NCBI RefSeq assembly: GCF_003574135.1
Contig: NZ_AP018341.1
Span: 620,001 to 684,000 of the forward strand
Length of the DNA stretch: 64,000 nucleotides
Direction: 5' to 3'
From: a cyanobacterium endosymbiont of Rhopalodia gibberula
Lineage (GTDB): Bacteria > Cyanobacteriota > Cyanobacteriia > Cyanobacteriales > Microcystaceae
Positions 27,338-41,554 of this stretch are shown one piece after another (the first letter of the stretch is position 1; every line of letters begins with the position of its first letter). Below the pieces are notes generated by a model. The model had not been told where the DNA came from, ran no database searches, and saw only the letters and a list, made by a program, of their open reading frames with translations. The translations under genes were made by a program, and so were the position numbers.

Positions 27338-28306
27338 GTGATCATAACCTTAAGTGATGCCAACGTAAAAGCTGCTTTAGCTGCCATTGAATCTGATGGA
27401 GCTACCCTAGACGAAAAAATCGAGATGTTAATTGAAATAGCTATGGGGCTGCAAAAAAAGCCGAAGAATTCCCAACAATTCGAAGACGCGGTTTTTCTTT
27501 ATCGTAGGGGATTAGAACTATGTCCTCCTGACTATCCCTTGTTACGAGCAAGATGTTTATCGGGAATGGGAACTGCATTGCGAACAATTCCTGCAGAAGG
27601 AGAGAGCTTACTCTTAGAAGCAAAAACTGCTTACGAAACCGCCCTTCCCATACTTGAAAAATATGCGTCTCCCGAAGAAGTCGCTGAGGTATACATGAAC
27701 ATAGGGGTTGTGCTACAAGGGTTGGTTCCCTTTCAAAAAGCAGCCATGCAAGATGCTATAAAGGCTTATCAAAAAGCGGCAAGAATATTTACTGGAGAGA
27801 ATTACCCTCAAGAATTCTCCATATTACAAAATAACATCGCGATCGCTTATCTTTCAATGCCTCTAGCTCTGAACGGGGAAGAAATGTGTCAAGCCATTGC
27901 AGTTCAGTCTTTTGAAGCGGCTTTGAAATGGGTGACGCTAACCGATCATCCTAGCGAATATGCTATGCTGAATAATAATTTCGCTAACGCTCTACAATCT
28001 CTTCCGAGTGCTCATCCGATAGAAAATAACTTAAAAGCTCTAGCTGCATACAATGAGGCGTTAAAGGTTCGTACTCCTCAAGATACTCCCCTTGAATGGG
28101 CCAACACTATCTCAAATAAGGCGAACGTTTTGTTCAATTTACCTGATGATATTGAGCACCCTGAAAGGGGTAATCAAAGTAATCTTATAGAAGCTAAAAC
28201 TTACTATCAAAAAGCTCAAGGAGTATTTAGTCAATACGGACAATGGGAACAAGTAGAGGTTGTGAAAAAAGCTTTACAAGATATAGAGGTACAATTAAGG
28301 AGTTAG
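27338..28306 (+). CDS. TPR-like repeat protein of a hydrogenase/nif-associated type cassette
   Basis: A 322-residue soluble helical protein. GTG start preceded by AGAGAGG. After a short helical N-terminus it contains about five TPR-like repeats, for example EAKTAYETALPILEKYA, DAIKAYQKAARIFTG, QSFEAALKWVTL, KALAAYNEALKVRTP and EAKTYYQKAQGVFSQYG. It is followed with short spacing by two small membrane proteins and then a dead NifU-Rieske gene. From memory, heterocystous cyanobacteria carry a comparable set (TPR, two small membrane proteins, NifU-like) in the extended hyp (hydrogenase maturation) operon. If so, it may act in hydrogenase or Fe-S protein assembly; that link is inference. Confidence 0.7.
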   Translation: MIITLSDANVKAALAAIESDGATLDEKIEMLIEIAMGLQKKPKNSQQFEDAVFLYRRGLELCPPDYPLLRARCLSGMGTALRTIPAEGESLLLEAKTAYETALPILEKYASPEEVAEVYMNIGVVLQGLVPFQKAAMQDAIKAYQKAARIFTGENYPQEFSILQNNIAIAYLSMPLALNGEEMCQAIAVQSFEAALKWVTLTDHPSEYAMLNNNFANALQSLPSAHPIENNLKALAAYNEALKVRTPQDTPLEWANTISNKANVLFNLPDDIEHPERGNQSNLIEAKTYYQKAQGVFSQYGQWEQVEVVKKALQDIEVQLRS

Positions 28307-28337
28307 TAATTTAATTTGTCTAAGGAGCGTAATTAAA

Positions 28338-28607
28338 ATGACTGAAATTCTAGATAACTTAGGGACAAATCCAACCATTCATAATTTTTTTACAAATCTA
28401 ATGATGGGAGAGATAACCTTAGTAACAGGCTTACTCTGGTTAGTAGTGGCTGCTATCATTTCTGTTATCAGTGGAGCTATCGGTGGAGTGTTATTGGCAG
28501 GTAAGGATATTGGCTATCAACTGTCTATCATGATGGGTAGTTTGTTGGGTCCCGCGGGGGTTATTCCAGTTGTTGTTATTGGACTTATTCTGTTGAGATT
28601 AGTGTAG
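28338..28607 (+). CDS. Small membrane protein (cassette member 1)
   Basis: An 89-residue protein with two or three membrane segments: about 25-55 (GLLWLVVAAIISVISGAIGGVLLAG) and 68-88 (PAGVIPVVVIGLILLRL). It is Gly-rich. It starts 31 bases after the TPR gene with AAGGAG upstream, so very likely co-transcribed. I know no biochemical function; context places it with the TPR and NifU-Rieske genes. Confidence 0.7.
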   Translation: MTEILDNLGTNPTIHNFFTNLMMGEITLVTGLLWLVVAAIISVISGAIGGVLLAGKDIGYQLSIMMGSLLGPAGVIPVVVIGLILLRLV

Positions 28608-28619
28608 GAGTTACAGATA

Positions 28620-28844
28620 ATGTTAAGACTGACCTGGTATTCTGCAAAATTGTTTTTCAAAGGCAAATTAATCCGTAATCCTGGATATTTTTACAAACAA
28701 TTTGCTTTGGGGTTTCTTATCGGATTGTTATTATTAGTTGGACTAGGTAAAATGGAAATTAATTTAGCTTTAGCTATTGCAGTATCTAGTCTAGTGACAG
28801 GAATGCTTATGCCTTTTTTGCTTAAAGATATAAAAATGCAGTGA
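28620..28844 (+). CDS. Small membrane protein (cassette member 2)
   Basis: A 74-residue protein with two membrane helices (about 28-45 and 50-67) after a basic amphipathic N-terminus (WYSAKLFFKGKLIRNPGYFYK). It starts 12 bases after the previous gene and its Shine-Dalgarno (TAGGAG) overlaps that gene's stop, so it is translationally coupled. Function unknown. Both membrane genes look intact although the next gene is dead. Confidence 0.7.
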   Translation: MLRLTWYSAKLFFKGKLIRNPGYFYKQFALGFLIGLLLLVGLGKMEINLALAIAVSSLVTGMLMPFLLKDIKMQ

Positions 28845-28945
28845 TTATTCGCATTTAGCTCTTCAGACTTTATAGTGGCTAGTCGTTAACTATTTACTAT
28901 AGAGTCTCTGCTGTTAATCTATAAATCAATCTACCTTCACATTAA

Positions 28946-29810
28946 GACAAGTGAAGACTTTAGAAAGCCTAGTAGAAGAAGTTAGTCTCTGTAAACTAAT
29001 AACATTCTAATGAAATGAGAATCAAAAGGTGATTGTTGAAGGGTTGAAAGGAACAGTTGAGGAATTACATAAGGAAGGGTTAACTCGTCTAAATTCGTGG
29101 TATTAAACGATAACTAATGGGTATATTGCCCCATGCAGTTGAAGATAAAATTGTTTATATATTATTACGTTATCATCAATTAATTAAACCTCCAACTCCG
29201 CCCCTAAAATAATATTTTTAAAAAGCATTAGGAGCTGTTCGATCAGGATTGGAAAGTCATAATGAGGATGTAGAATTAGTGGCGCTTGAACTACCTGAGA
29301 GTGTCGCAGTTCAACTGATGAGGACTTGTAAGAATTGTCCAGTTTCTGCCCTAACCTTAAAACGAGAAATTGAACAGGTGATAAAAGCCTATTGTCCTGA
29401 AATTACGAAGATCTTATCAGTTAACAACTCTGCAATAGTTAGTTATAAAGATAACAGCTATTTTAGTGGTTCATTTTCTTTATTCCAAAAGATAGGTTAA
29501 ATATCTTTAACAACCATTGATGAGATATTCAATGAAGGAATTTCCCCGCTGGAAATTAAAAAATTAAAGTTTCTTTAAACAAGACAAGATGAGCAAGTAA
29601 TTAGGTATGGCAATAGTTATAATCATTGAGCAATATCCTTAGACACTAGAGAAGTTGAAGATGATATTTTAAATTGCCCATATTATTGGTTTAAATATCG
29701 CTTAGCCACGGGATAATGTTTAACGGTACCTAGAATATCTCTGGAAGCTTATTCTGTTAAATGATATGGAGATCGCGTGTTGTTCCAAGTTTTTTCGGAA
29801 AAATGATATA
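28946..29810 (+). pseudogene. Dead NifU-domain plus Rieske [2Fe-2S] fusion protein
   Basis: Remains run in order: QVKTLESLVEEVSL, VEGLKGTVEELHKEGLTRL, YHQLIKPPTPPL, then an open NifU C-terminal domain (LESHNEDVELVALELPE... with CKNCP, the cluster-binding CxxC). After a stop region come HEY-less Rieske pieces: SLDTREVEDDILNCPYYWFKYRLATG and LEAYSVK, YGDRVL. The Rieske ligands are spoiled: the first C-x-H reads Y-N-H and CPYHGF reads CPYYWF. Several stops and frameshifts separate the blocks. It would have been an Fe-S carrier or electron-transfer protein of the cassette at 27338-28844. Confidence 0.75.
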
Positions 29811-31180
29811 AGCTATCCAGAAAACGATTAGTTTTAACTTTATATAAGAAAAGTTAATTGTTTAATAACAACTAATGTCTTAAATTATGCTAAACTGATA
29901 ACGTAAAGCTAACCAGTAAACTGTTAAGTTTAGAAGTTTTTGAGACTGAGAATTGACATAATTTCTGAAGCTATAAGCTTTTCTTTGATTTATATTTAAT
30001 ATTTTCTACTTTTCCTTAATTTGTTCCTCCGTATAAGTAAACAATAATTCTTTTGAATATAACGCTTGATTATTCTTCATTTTTTTAGTTCGATGGATAA
30101 GCGTCTAAAAACTTATTTTTATAAATTTAATCGTTTTGAAACTAGTCTAATCTTTTTAGATAAATATTCTAAATATTTCTTTTAATTGGTATATTTTTAG
30201 TTGTCTTATGTTTAAAATTGCCAGAACAGTTTTTGACTAGTCTTTTAAGTCTTTTAACTTCACATTATAGGATTTTTATTTAGTTATCTAATTAAGATAA
30301 AACCCGTTTTATTATATCAAATTTATTTGCTATTTTTTTAGTCTGTGGCATTAATTTACTTAGTAAAAAACTTTTATAAAAAGTCTCTAATTATGCCGCA
30401 TTTTTTTAAAATTCTTATTTCTATCCTTTCTGTACTAACTCTTTTACCTAAATCAACTAGCACTACATAACAACTCACTTGTTATTTAATCACATTAATT
30501 TTATTAATTACCAACCGTTTCAATATCTAAAGTTTGTTTATCTATAAATCTTAGATCAAATTATTAATTTTTTATCTATATTTTTACCGTTACTGTTTAG
30601 TGCTTTTTCAATATTTTTTTTTGCATTGATTATATCTCATATGACGACGATTAAATTTTAAATAGACCACTTTCTTTATAAGAAAAATTTATCTAACAGT
30701 TAATTTATGATTTTAATGAAGTTTTTTAGTATGTAAAATACAATAAATACAAGTTTTTGTTGTATTTATTGTTCTGATAAATTAAACTATTTCTAGTTTA
30801 ATTTAAATCTAAATAATAGAAAATTATAATTTTTGATAAATTTAAAATTTATTTAACTTAGTTAAATAGTTGACGATATAAATCTAAAATAGATAGTAGT
30901 CCTTGTATTTATAAGATAAAATTTAGACACAAAAAAATAAAAAATAATCAATAATTATGTTTTTAAATTAAAAATATTTTATATTTTTACTATGGTAGTA
31001 TATTAAATATATCTAATATAAAGTAGTATTTTTATTTATTTTAGATGATTGATGTTGTCTATTAATGCTTAACTTTTAAAGTTAATAACTCAAGGAATAA
31101 AATTAATTTTACAGTAAAAAATAGATAATCTAGGTCCTAAGATATTTATAAATAGTGATTAAAGTTAAAACTAATAATCT
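29811..31180. other. Extremely AT-rich spacer
   Basis: 1.4 kb dominated by A/T runs with dense stops on both strands. Nothing assignable. Confidence 0.5.
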
Positions 31181-31189
31181 ATACTTTTG

Positions 31190-31895
31190 ATTTCCTGATC
31201 AACATTAATGACTTAAAAATAGATAGAACTTCTATATAATGAAAATTCGTTTTACATTAACTGATTCTTTTTTATTAGTTGTTGCTGGAAAAGCAACCAT
31301 GTTATCATAACCAGAAGCTCACCTACGACCTTTAGAATTCAAAAAAGTTGTCCCACTATAAAAGATAACTTTAAAATCACCTTAAAAATCAGTCTTAAAA
31401 CTGTTAATAATAAGCAAACCTATATTCCATTTACCCACTAGATTATTCATAATAAAAAAGAAGAAAATTTGTTTATCTCCAGGTCACTTAACAGTGATAC
31501 TTTGAAACTTAATACCGCTTTCTATAAAATTAAGTACACTATTCTTATCAACAGCTATTTCAACGGCGATTTATTCTAAATTAATAGTCTAATCGGGTAG
31601 GAACTTACTAGGAACAAATGGAACTTTTTTGTGTTTGCTGACAAATTTTTTTAAAAAAATCTGTTTTTAGGGTTATAGACACAAATCTTCCACCACGTAA
31701 GTTATCCCTACCACGACAAGAATTGATCTCCGAGTAAATTTGAAAATTTTGAGAAATTTGTTGGCTAATCCCGTATTTATAATTTCATCATGGGTCAAAT
31801 TCTGAGGATTAACTAAATTTACAGGTCTATCGCTACAAACCATTAACATCTCCAAACACAGTATCAGAAAGACAATAATTTAAAACACAAAGTCT
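31190..31895 (-). pseudogene. psbO: Dead photosystem II manganese-stabilising protein
   Basis: On the minus strand the lipoprotein-like start ILCLEMLMVCSDRP is followed by NLTHDEIINTGLANK, then PFVPSKFLPD, IESGIKFQSITVK, PGDKQIFFFFIMNNLV, KTDF-stop-GDFKVIFYSGTTFLNSKGRR and ASGYDNMVAFPA. These match, in order, the PsbO segments LTYDQIRGTGLANKC, FVPGKLLTR, EKGGIDFQAITV, LPGGE..PFFF.VKNLVA, STDFKGDF.VPSYRG..FLDPKGRG and GYDNAVALPA. The conserved Cys of GLANKC is lost and at least five stops interrupt the frame. The oxygen-evolving-complex cap can no longer be made. Confidence 0.9.
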
Positions 31896-32094
31896 TTCGT
31901 TCCACCTCGTTGTGTTCGTCTCAAATTAAAAATATCTTGTTCCTATAAGTATTTTTAGTGAAAAAGATAACATATAGCGTTTTAGATAAGTTACGTTAAC
32001 AACGTCGGAGTCTACTCTACCAAAAAATCGTAACTACTCTCCTCCTCTTCCCTTTATCATGAAAATGATTGGGAAAAAGATTCAAGGAACAAGG

Positions 32095-40372: not shown

Positions 40373-41554
40373 TTAACTATTTCCCGTTCGCTTTAAAACA
40401 TCTTCGGCTGATAGACCATCCCCTTGATAACCAAAGTACCATAAGGCGGCTGCGGCTTGAGCGCGAGTTACAGTTTTTTTAGGTTGAAACAACATTGTAT
40501 AACCAAAGACACGGCGGACGTTCCCCTGTTCTCCATTTTGGAAATCAGCATATAATCCCCGTAATCCTATAGGACCAATTTGAGTAGTATCTTGAAATCC
40601 CCAAGTTTCTTTAATCCCATCAATAGAAGCTTTAGGTAGACTTCTACCCATGTCTAAAGGGACTTTCCAAGTAATTAAATCAGACCGTGTTAAAAATTCA
40701 TCAGGACGGAATAAGAAAGTGTTACTGTCTCCTGTAAGATGCGAAGAAACTAACCCTGCCTCGGCTAATCCTTGAATTACGGGAAAATCAGCGTCATTTG
40801 AAGGAACATCATTAAAAGCCGGTTTAGCATTTTTTAACCCTAAACGGATTTGTTGCTCAGGGGAATCTTGATAAAATTTATTTTTAGCCTTGACTAACCA
40901 TCGTGCATATTCTCGACGAGTAATCGGTTCATTAGGGTGAAATTGGTTATTTTCTTTAGCGGTTAAAATACCCAAGTTTGCTACGTCTTGAACATAGGGA
41001 CGTAAAGCTTCAGGAACTTGATTAAGATCAGAAAAATTAGCAGGTTTACTAGTAACAGTTGAAAACTGGTTAGACGAACCATTATTTAATTGAGTGGTAT
41101 CAGCCTGTTTATATTCAAGGGTGAATTCTGTTGTTGATTTTCTAGGGAATAGAGACAGTCTAATTTTTAGATTATCTTTTTGAGCAACTAATGAACTTTC
41201 TTCAGAGTTAGACGAAAAAGGCTGAATAATTTCCCATTTTTGTAACTTTAATTGCTGTCGATAAAAATTCTTAATTTCCTCAGTAGGTTTATCAGTTTTC
41301 CAACTAGCTGCCCCATTATTTTCTGTGATTTCTTGAGTTATTTCTTGTAAAGTAGCTTGGGGATATTGGGGGATTTCTGAGGGAAAATTATTCGGAAGTT
41401 TAATGGTTGAATTTTGGTGAGTTTCTAAATTTTTTGTGAATTTAGGATTTGCAGAAAATCGACCTTCCAACCCCTCGATTCCACTACACGCTGTTAATAG
41501 TCCTATTAAGGAAATCAAAATACTGTAACGTATCACAACCATAAGCCTAGACAA
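40373..41554 (-). CDS. S-layer homology (SLH) domain lipoprotein
   Basis: A 393-residue exported protein. The N-terminus ends in a lipobox (LLTACSG, Cys about 23), so it is probably lipidated. A beta-rich middle region follows (about 60-150; KPTEEIKNFYRQQLKLQKWEI resembles a small ligand-binding fold). Two or three SLH repeats then occupy about 190-385 (PYVQDVANLGILTAKENNQFHPNEPITRREYARWLV; RPDEFLTRSDLITW; FQPKKTVTRAQAAAALW). SLH repeats anchor proteins to cell-wall polymers. Isolated gene, apparently intact. Confidence 0.85.
   Translation of the reverse strand: MSRLMVVIRYSILISLIGLLTACSGIEGLEGRFSANPKFTKNLETHQNSTIKLPNNFPSEIPQYPQATLQEITQEITENNGAASWKTDKPTEEIKNFYRQQLKLQKWEIIQPFSSNSEESSLVAQKDNLKIRLSLFPRKSTTEFTLEYKQADTTQLNNGSSNQFSTVTSKPANFSDLNQVPEALRPYVQDVANLGILTAKENNQFHPNEPITRREYARWLVKAKNKFYQDSPEQQIRLGLKNAKPAFNDVPSNDADFPVIQGLAEAGLVSSHLTGDSNTFLFRPDEFLTRSDLITWKVPLDMGRSLPKASIDGIKETWGFQDTTQIGPIGLRGLYADFQNGEQGNVRRVFGYTMLFQPKKTVTRAQAAAALWYFGYQGDGLSAEDVLKRTGNS

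Follow-up and report, generated by a model that had tools for sequence, protein, structure and literature searches.

The extended hyp-operon of Nostoc sp. PCC 7120 and Nostoc punctiforme comprises four gene types (asr0689-alr0692 in Nostoc), and a role in the maturation of the uptake hydrogenase has been proposed for their products (PMC2408588, PMC3126725). The position of the set already varies among known members, e.g., in Trichodesmium (PMC2408588). A 2010 genome comparison gives asr0689 and hupSL as present and alr0692 as absent in Cylindrospermopsis raciborskii CS-505, and both hupSL and asr0689 as absent in strain D9 (PMC2821919). Within the literature searched, outside which most subscription journals lay, the locus names of the set occurred in two papers on the operon, one on the hupSL promoter and the 2010 comparison. 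The alr0692-type gene encodes HucE, which combines a NifU CxxC domain with a Rieske motif and is associated with group 2a [NiFe]-hydrogenases. What accepts the electrons of the uptake hydrogenase in cyanobacteria has been called long enigmatic, and HucE was put forward for group 2a; H2 consumption by M. smegmatis requires HucE, and both truncated HucE and hydrogenase-bearing species without HucE/HhyE have been reported (PMC6883350). For Huc, the hydrogenase of M. smegmatis, HucM provides the link to the membrane, and direct reduction of quinone has been reported (PMC10017518).

Here, a cluster of this type is described in which hucE has decayed. Together, the four genes make up the accessory cluster of HupSL, the group 2a uptake hydrogenase of cyanobacteria. 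It is already known that HucE is not universal, and its absence as such is not new; what is new is that hucE is dead or not found in all six endosymbiont-type genomes with an uninterrupted HupL (6/6), with at least two separate losses.

Architecture of the cluster

The window, i.e., the whole stretch of 64,000 nucleotides that was analysed, corresponds to positions 620001-684000 of a genome assembled as one contig (3,020,309 bp), which we take to be of the diatom-endosymbiont kind, as judged from genome decay and kinship. Three intact genes on the + strand (27338-28844), with intergenic gaps of 31 and 12 bp, lie upstream of a dead NifU-Rieske gene (Table 1). The open reading frames and an alignment thus bear out an earlier note on this DNA, which had described three tightly spaced intact genes before a dead NifU-Rieske gene and had likened the set to the extended hyp-operon: the TPR, asr0689-type, asr0690-type and NifU-like genes are adjacent and co-oriented here, the fourth being a pseudogene. 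The TPR protein matches Pfam TPR_12 at 1.6e-6, slightly below the curated cut-off. The 89-aa product is a member of the asr0689 family (106.1 bits against NCBIfam NF052670.1, cut-off 95), and the name asr0690 for the type of the 74-aa gene is taken from PMC2408588. Neither small protein has a Pfam match at an E-value of 1.

Table 1. Features of the cluster (positions are those of the window).
Feature	Position	Strand	Basis
TPR superhelix protein, alr0691 / Npun_R0367-type orthologue, 322 aa, GTG start, intact	27338..28306	+	ORF, Pfam, AlphaFold2, PDB folds
Small membrane protein, 89 aa, asr0689 family, two predicted hydrophobic spans, intact	28338..28607	+	ORF, NCBIfam, hydropathy
Small membrane protein, 74 aa, asr0690 type by position, two predicted hydrophobic spans, intact	28620..28844	+	ORF, hydropathy
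Dead hucE (NifU-Rieske fusion, alr0692 type), boundaries approximate	28921..29791	+	Alignment to intact relative
Readable NifU-domain remnant, 83-aa ORF inside dead hucE	29249..29500	+	ORF, Pfam NifU 1.8e-11

The order TPR, 89-aa, 74-aa, NifU-Rieske is repeated in free-living relatives, which argues for a cluster beyond chance, and the conservation of the neighbourhood in other cyanobacteria, on which the earlier note had made its reading depend, is thereby found. On the 3.02 Mb contig, the cluster lies at 0.65 Mb, hypD at 2.68 Mb and hupSL at 2.88 Mb, and not between hupSL and the hyp genes as published. It is a rearranged form of the extended hyp-operon set and not the operon in its published position. 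An 80% identical relative of the gene that directly follows hucE in the free-living relative G002 is found at window positions 40376-41554 on the - strand; it now lies about 11 kb away in the opposite orientation, which indicates that the neighbourhood has been rearranged. Downstream of the dead hucE, about 2 kb of A+T-rich DNA without a long ORF (window 29850-32000) are likely to be further decayed sequence. In eight genomes, the 500 bp upstream of the TPR gene contain no strict NtcA-like pattern; an NtcA-like site before the cluster was rejected, the whole window having 12 strict matches as against 12.2 expected by chance.

Decay of hucE

The window copy of hucE was aligned with the intact copy of G002. 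Its start codon has changed from ATG to ATA, one frameshifting 1-bp insertion is present, and ten stops interrupt the reference frame. Intact relatives of hucE encode both a NifU and a Rieske domain; in the window, the Rieske ligand motifs read 'SYNH' and 'CPYYWF' where the intact relative has 'SCNH' and 'CLYHGF', which corresponds to the changes C to Y and H to Y. The ligand losses read by the earlier note are therefore real, and part of the NifU domain is still readable in the form of the 83-aa remnant. NifU and Rieske domains with intact ligands in a single frame, by which HucE was recognised here, do not occur together in the window copy, which is a decayed hucE. The earlier note had named an intact NifU-Rieske paralogue as evidence that would count against it; none was found elsewhere in the genome.

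Compared with G002, hucE of the endosymbiont EcSB (G001) is interrupted by three stops, has three indels of 1 bp and has lost 92 bp in one deletion, and hucE of G003, presumably the Epithemia turgida endosymbiont, carries eight stops and five indels. The change of the start codon to ATA is common to the window, EcSB and G003, as is a stop at reference codon 218, and a further stop at codon 280 is found in the window and EcSB. The shared loss of the start suggests that hucE was inactivated before these three lineages diverged; parallel G-to-A changes in A+T-rich genomes may be an alternative source of the shared ATA. In G004, only a trace of 49 residues is left, and a genome-wide search at an E-value of 1e-8 returned no hucE. 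In the genomes of G013 and G021 (1.44 and 1.49 Mb), both of which we take to be UCYN-A, hucE was not found.

Status of the uptake hydrogenase

The search for hupSL and hyp genes that the earlier note had proposed revealed that the window genome encodes an intact HupL (2881231-2882826), an intact HupS immediately upstream of it and an intact HypD (2675725-2676777). HupL is also uninterrupted in G001, G003, G004, G013 and G021, with identities of 88-97%; the stops shown for HupL in G004 and G013 are located before the start and result from the extended start of the query. Ten conserved cysteine columns of HupS are unaltered in 36 aligned sequences. All conserved HupS cysteines are present in G021, taken as a UCYN-A2-type genome, and the loss of some Fe-S ligands described for UCYN-A2 HupS in a phylum survey (PMC5186783) was thus not reproduced. 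When HupSL of six hucE-less and seven hucE-bearing genomes of the family were aligned, 3 of 869 columns differed consistently (A/S, D/E, A/V).

According to a genome comparison from 2026, the uptake hydrogenase is encoded by all the endosymbionts (PMC12903740). HupL protein was reported to be stable in the E. clementina endosymbiont, and an immunoblot of this endosymbiont and a free-living relative displays apo and mature HupL, the legend assigning no organism to either form (PMC11070190).

Selection on the trio

Between the window and EcSB, pN/pS amounts to 0.91 for the dead hucE, as compared with 0.19 for the TPR gene and with 0.22 and 0.35 for the 89-aa and 74-aa genes, respectively. With hucE as the reference, Fisher tests of nonsynonymous against synonymous changes gave 3.5e-9 for the TPR gene, 6.8e-5 for the 89-aa gene and 6.9e-5 when the two small genes were combined; the 74-aa gene alone is not clearly different from the dead hucE in this pair (p = 0.07). 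Between the window and G003, the corresponding pN/pS values are 0.88 for hucE, 0.43 for the 89-aa gene (p = 0.035), 0.18 for the 74-aa gene (1.6e-4) and 0.29 for the small genes together (1.4e-4). The hucE genes of the free-living pair G002/G006 show a pN/pS of 0.17. Between the UCYN-A-like genomes G013 and G021, dN/dS is 0.13 for the TPR gene, 0.07 for the 89-aa gene and 0.08 for the 74-aa gene. The trio is under purifying selection.

The trio could also merely be drifting and not yet have decayed, which would suit the decaying look of the A+T-rich sequence without long ORFs downstream of the cluster and the fact that the TPR gene is already dead in G003. However, this explanation was tested and is disfavoured by the pN/pS of the trio, which is lower than that of the adjacent dead hucE when the same two genomes are compared, and the trio is intact in the strongly conserved form described above in the UCYN-A-like genomes of 1.44 and 1.49 Mb; we regard drift as the least probable of all readings.

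Co-occurrence with HupL

The distribution of the genes was determined in a class sample of 290 genomes, with E-value cut-offs of up to 1e-150 for HupL, 1e-60 for the TPR orthologue and 1e-5 for the 74-aa protein. HupL was found in 25 genomes and the TPR orthologue likewise in 25, 24 of them being common to both sets. The 74-aa gene is present in 25/25 HupL genomes and in 0/265 others (Fisher 1.2e-36, a value that is overstated since genomes are treated as independent), and the 89-aa gene adjoins it in 25/25. Because the 74-aa gene occurs in exactly the HupL-bearing genomes of the class sample, its function appears to be tied to the uptake hydrogenase. HupL was sought in 36 of 58 relatives and found in 15 of the 36, which are the same 15 that carry the TPR orthologue (14 intact, a pseudogene in G003), and all 15 have both small genes.

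Full-length hucE is less widespread. It was found in 18 of the 25 HupL genomes of the class sample; the remaining seven comprise three with truncated or broken pieces (G154, G174, G283), one with a dead gene (G000) and three with none (G188, G246, G309), and Rieske-only matches in G036 and G299 were not counted as hucE. In the union of 39 HupL genomes, the membrane pair is present in 39, an intact TPR gene in 37 and full-length hucE in 25; the 14 genomes without full-length hucE include G005 (87% complete) and G052 (94%, fragmented), for which assembly gaps are possible. Two genomes have also lost the TPR gene: in G003, both the TPR gene and hucE are dead and the membrane pair is intact, and G188 (3.76 Mb, Anabaena/Cylindrospermum family, f25) lacks hucE and retains, besides hupSL and the membrane pair, a short remnant of the TPR gene. 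With the TPR gene lost in both, the membrane pair, and not the whole trio, appears to be the core of the set. The remnant in G188, of about 50 residues, stands directly before the intact asr0689-asr0690 pair (L167:7948-8643), a reduction that matches the one in G003 but is found in a lineage far removed from it.

At the level of single loci, 80 named loci were fetched by means of the TPR gene, and each small gene was found in 77 of them; at L101, L110 and L112, neither is nearby. Nine of the 80 contain the trio and hupSL without hucE nearby (L074, L080, L083, L088, L111, L113, L118, L137, L139), which is a local view only. For this table, weak NifU-Rieske matches of less than 60 bits were discarded and each locus is represented by its best segment alone, so the table is not used to claim truncation. 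In G252, there are two hup clusters (L149, L185), one of which has a split hupL; each has its own TPR gene and membrane pair, and there is only one hucE. In G167, a TPR orthologue is located beside an apparent hypF (L143:9496-10479), with no HupL match in the genome; it is possibly a relic or has been recruited to another hydrogenase.

A HupS+HupL tree was calculated with FastTree for 36 of the 39 HupL genomes and midpoint rooted, with no support values used; G283, G304 and G309 were left out, as hupSL was not, or not fully, contained in the fetched stretches. G013 and G021 group with the hucE-bearing G023, G029 and G033 and apart from the diatom endosymbionts, which argues for separate losses of hucE. 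Over the tree, five losses are counted, or six if truncated genes are included (with G005 treated as unknown and G052 possibly an assembly gap). As judged from this tree, hucE has been lost at least twice separately among endosymbiont-type genomes, and it is also dead or not found in some free-living genomes.

It could be argued that the function of HucE is still needed and is supplied by host import or by Nfu, NifU or another Rieske protein. Indeed, the window genome retains an Nfu of 85 aa, a NifU of 302 aa and four further Rieske loci. Nfu- and NifU-type proteins, however, are also found in genomes that retain HucE, and the hucE-less G188, G246 (Anabaena sp. UHCC 0187) and G309 look free-living by their family label, which leaves no host as a supplier. 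We therefore consider such a substitution improbable.

The earlier note had suggested that continued selection on the trio without its Fe-S partner would point to a separate, undescribed function. Continued selection is confirmed by the pN/pS values; the separateness does not hold in the form proposed. As HupL, HupS and HypD are intact and the 74-aa gene co-occurs with HupL, the function of the trio seems to be separate from HucE and not from the hydrogenase; most likely, the trio works for the latter. A role outside hydrogen metabolism would fit the distance of the trio from hupSL and hypD in the window genome and the one TPR gene seen without HupL (G167), but it leaves the strict distribution of the 74-aa gene unexplained, and hupSL and the trio are neighbours in many free-living strains; such a function is very improbable.

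Possible roles of the membrane pair, the TPR protein and HucE

The AlphaFold2 model of the TPR protein (pLDDT 91.4) is an all-helical superhelix, whose best fold matches in the PDB are TPR superhelices such as LGN, i.e., peptide-binding scaffolds; a sequence relative in the PDB was not found at an E-value of 0.01. The model of the 89-aa protein is moderate (pLDDT 75.2, pTM 0.48), and the topology predicted for the two small membrane proteins is otherwise derived from hydropathy. The window copies of both small proteins contain no cysteine. Across the 77 copies of each, 73 of the 89-aa and 54 of the 74-aa proteins are free of cysteine, and 57 and 66, respectively, are free of histidine. Since neither residue is conserved in the pair, asr0689 and asr0690 are unlikely to be electron carriers.

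We give an even chance to a model in which the asr0689/asr0690 pair docks HupSL on the membrane, the TPR protein aids assembly and HucE is dispensable. The two hairpin-like membrane proteins would form a docking module on the quinone side that holds the cytoplasmic HupSL, and the docked HupS would reduce quinone at the membrane without HucE. The TPR protein would act as an assembly adaptor, helpful and not strictly needed, and HucE would be an auxiliary electron-transfer or Fe-S protein that is expendable for cyanobacteria. Membrane docking is favoured by the strict tie of the pair to HupL as against the looser tie of the TPR protein and HucE.

The main rival is that the trio consists of maturation factors, which support Fe-S assembly or chaperoning of HupS and are not a stable part of the working enzyme. 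This role was proposed by Agervald and colleagues based on co-transcription with hyp genes (PMC2408588, PMC3126725); a TPR superhelix suits a chaperone, and the co-occurrence with HupL is equally consistent with it. However, HucE, which most resembles an Fe-S factor, is the protein most often lost, and the most constant partners are small membrane proteins without conserved cysteine or histidine. We consider maturation possible and less probable than membrane docking.

Within the docking model, a more far-reaching proposal is given somewhat less than an even chance: the pair might be an unrecognised membrane anchor and quinone-access module, HucE might not be the obligatory electron acceptor, and gene loss might have pared the set towards the pair in the diatom endosymbionts, the UCYN-A-like genomes and the 3.76 Mb genome of the Anabaena/Cylindrospermum family. 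The repeated natural loss of hucE in genomes that keep HupSL argues that HucE may be dispensable in cyanobacteria; since it is required in M. smegmatis, it may matter in other phyla or conditions. The analysis singles out two unstudied small membrane proteins whose genes can be deleted in Nostoc, and it bears on the recycling of H2 from nitrogenase in endosymbionts of the diatom and UCYN-A kinds.

Comparison with known systems

Within group 2a hydrogenases, the small pair is a module at the level of clades and is not universal. Nine of 35 records with a HupL-like match were opened. In five of five alphaproteobacterial plasmid operons (Mesorhizobium, Bradyrhizobium, Octadecabacter, Sphingopyxis and Novosphingobium, the last two being near copies of one operon), the TPR protein, both small proteins (profile E-values of 4e-4 to 3e-18) and HucE are encoded beside hupSL, together with hypF; three of these operons also have an NHL-annotated gene downstream. 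These operons share with the window the TPR protein and the proteins matching the asr0689 and asr0690 profiles; unlike in the window, all genes are located beside hupSL and HucE is intact, and the small proteins are weakly similar. That the pair is universal to group 2a was rejected: the same profiles did not find it in four of four operons from other phyla (Thermus, Sulfobacillus, Runella and Hymenobacter), and the Thermus and Sulfobacillus operons contain the TPR protein and HucE.

The closest described system is the extended hyp-operon of Nostoc sp. PCC 7120 and N. punctiforme, which has the same four gene types and the same co-occurrence with hupSL (PMC2408588, PMC3126725). The window cluster opens with the TPR gene, an order shared with N. 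punctiforme, and it differs in that it lies away from hupSL and hypD and its hucE is dead. M. smegmatis needs HucE for H2 consumption, whereas here, and also in the sister endosymbionts, hucE is a pseudogene while HupSL persists. HucM, as described in PMC10017518, is a helical stalk peripheral to the membrane, whereas asr0689 and asr0690 are small membrane proteins, and no sequence relation is claimed. The proposed likeness is one of an analogous job only, in that both would bring a group 2a enzyme to the membrane for quinone.
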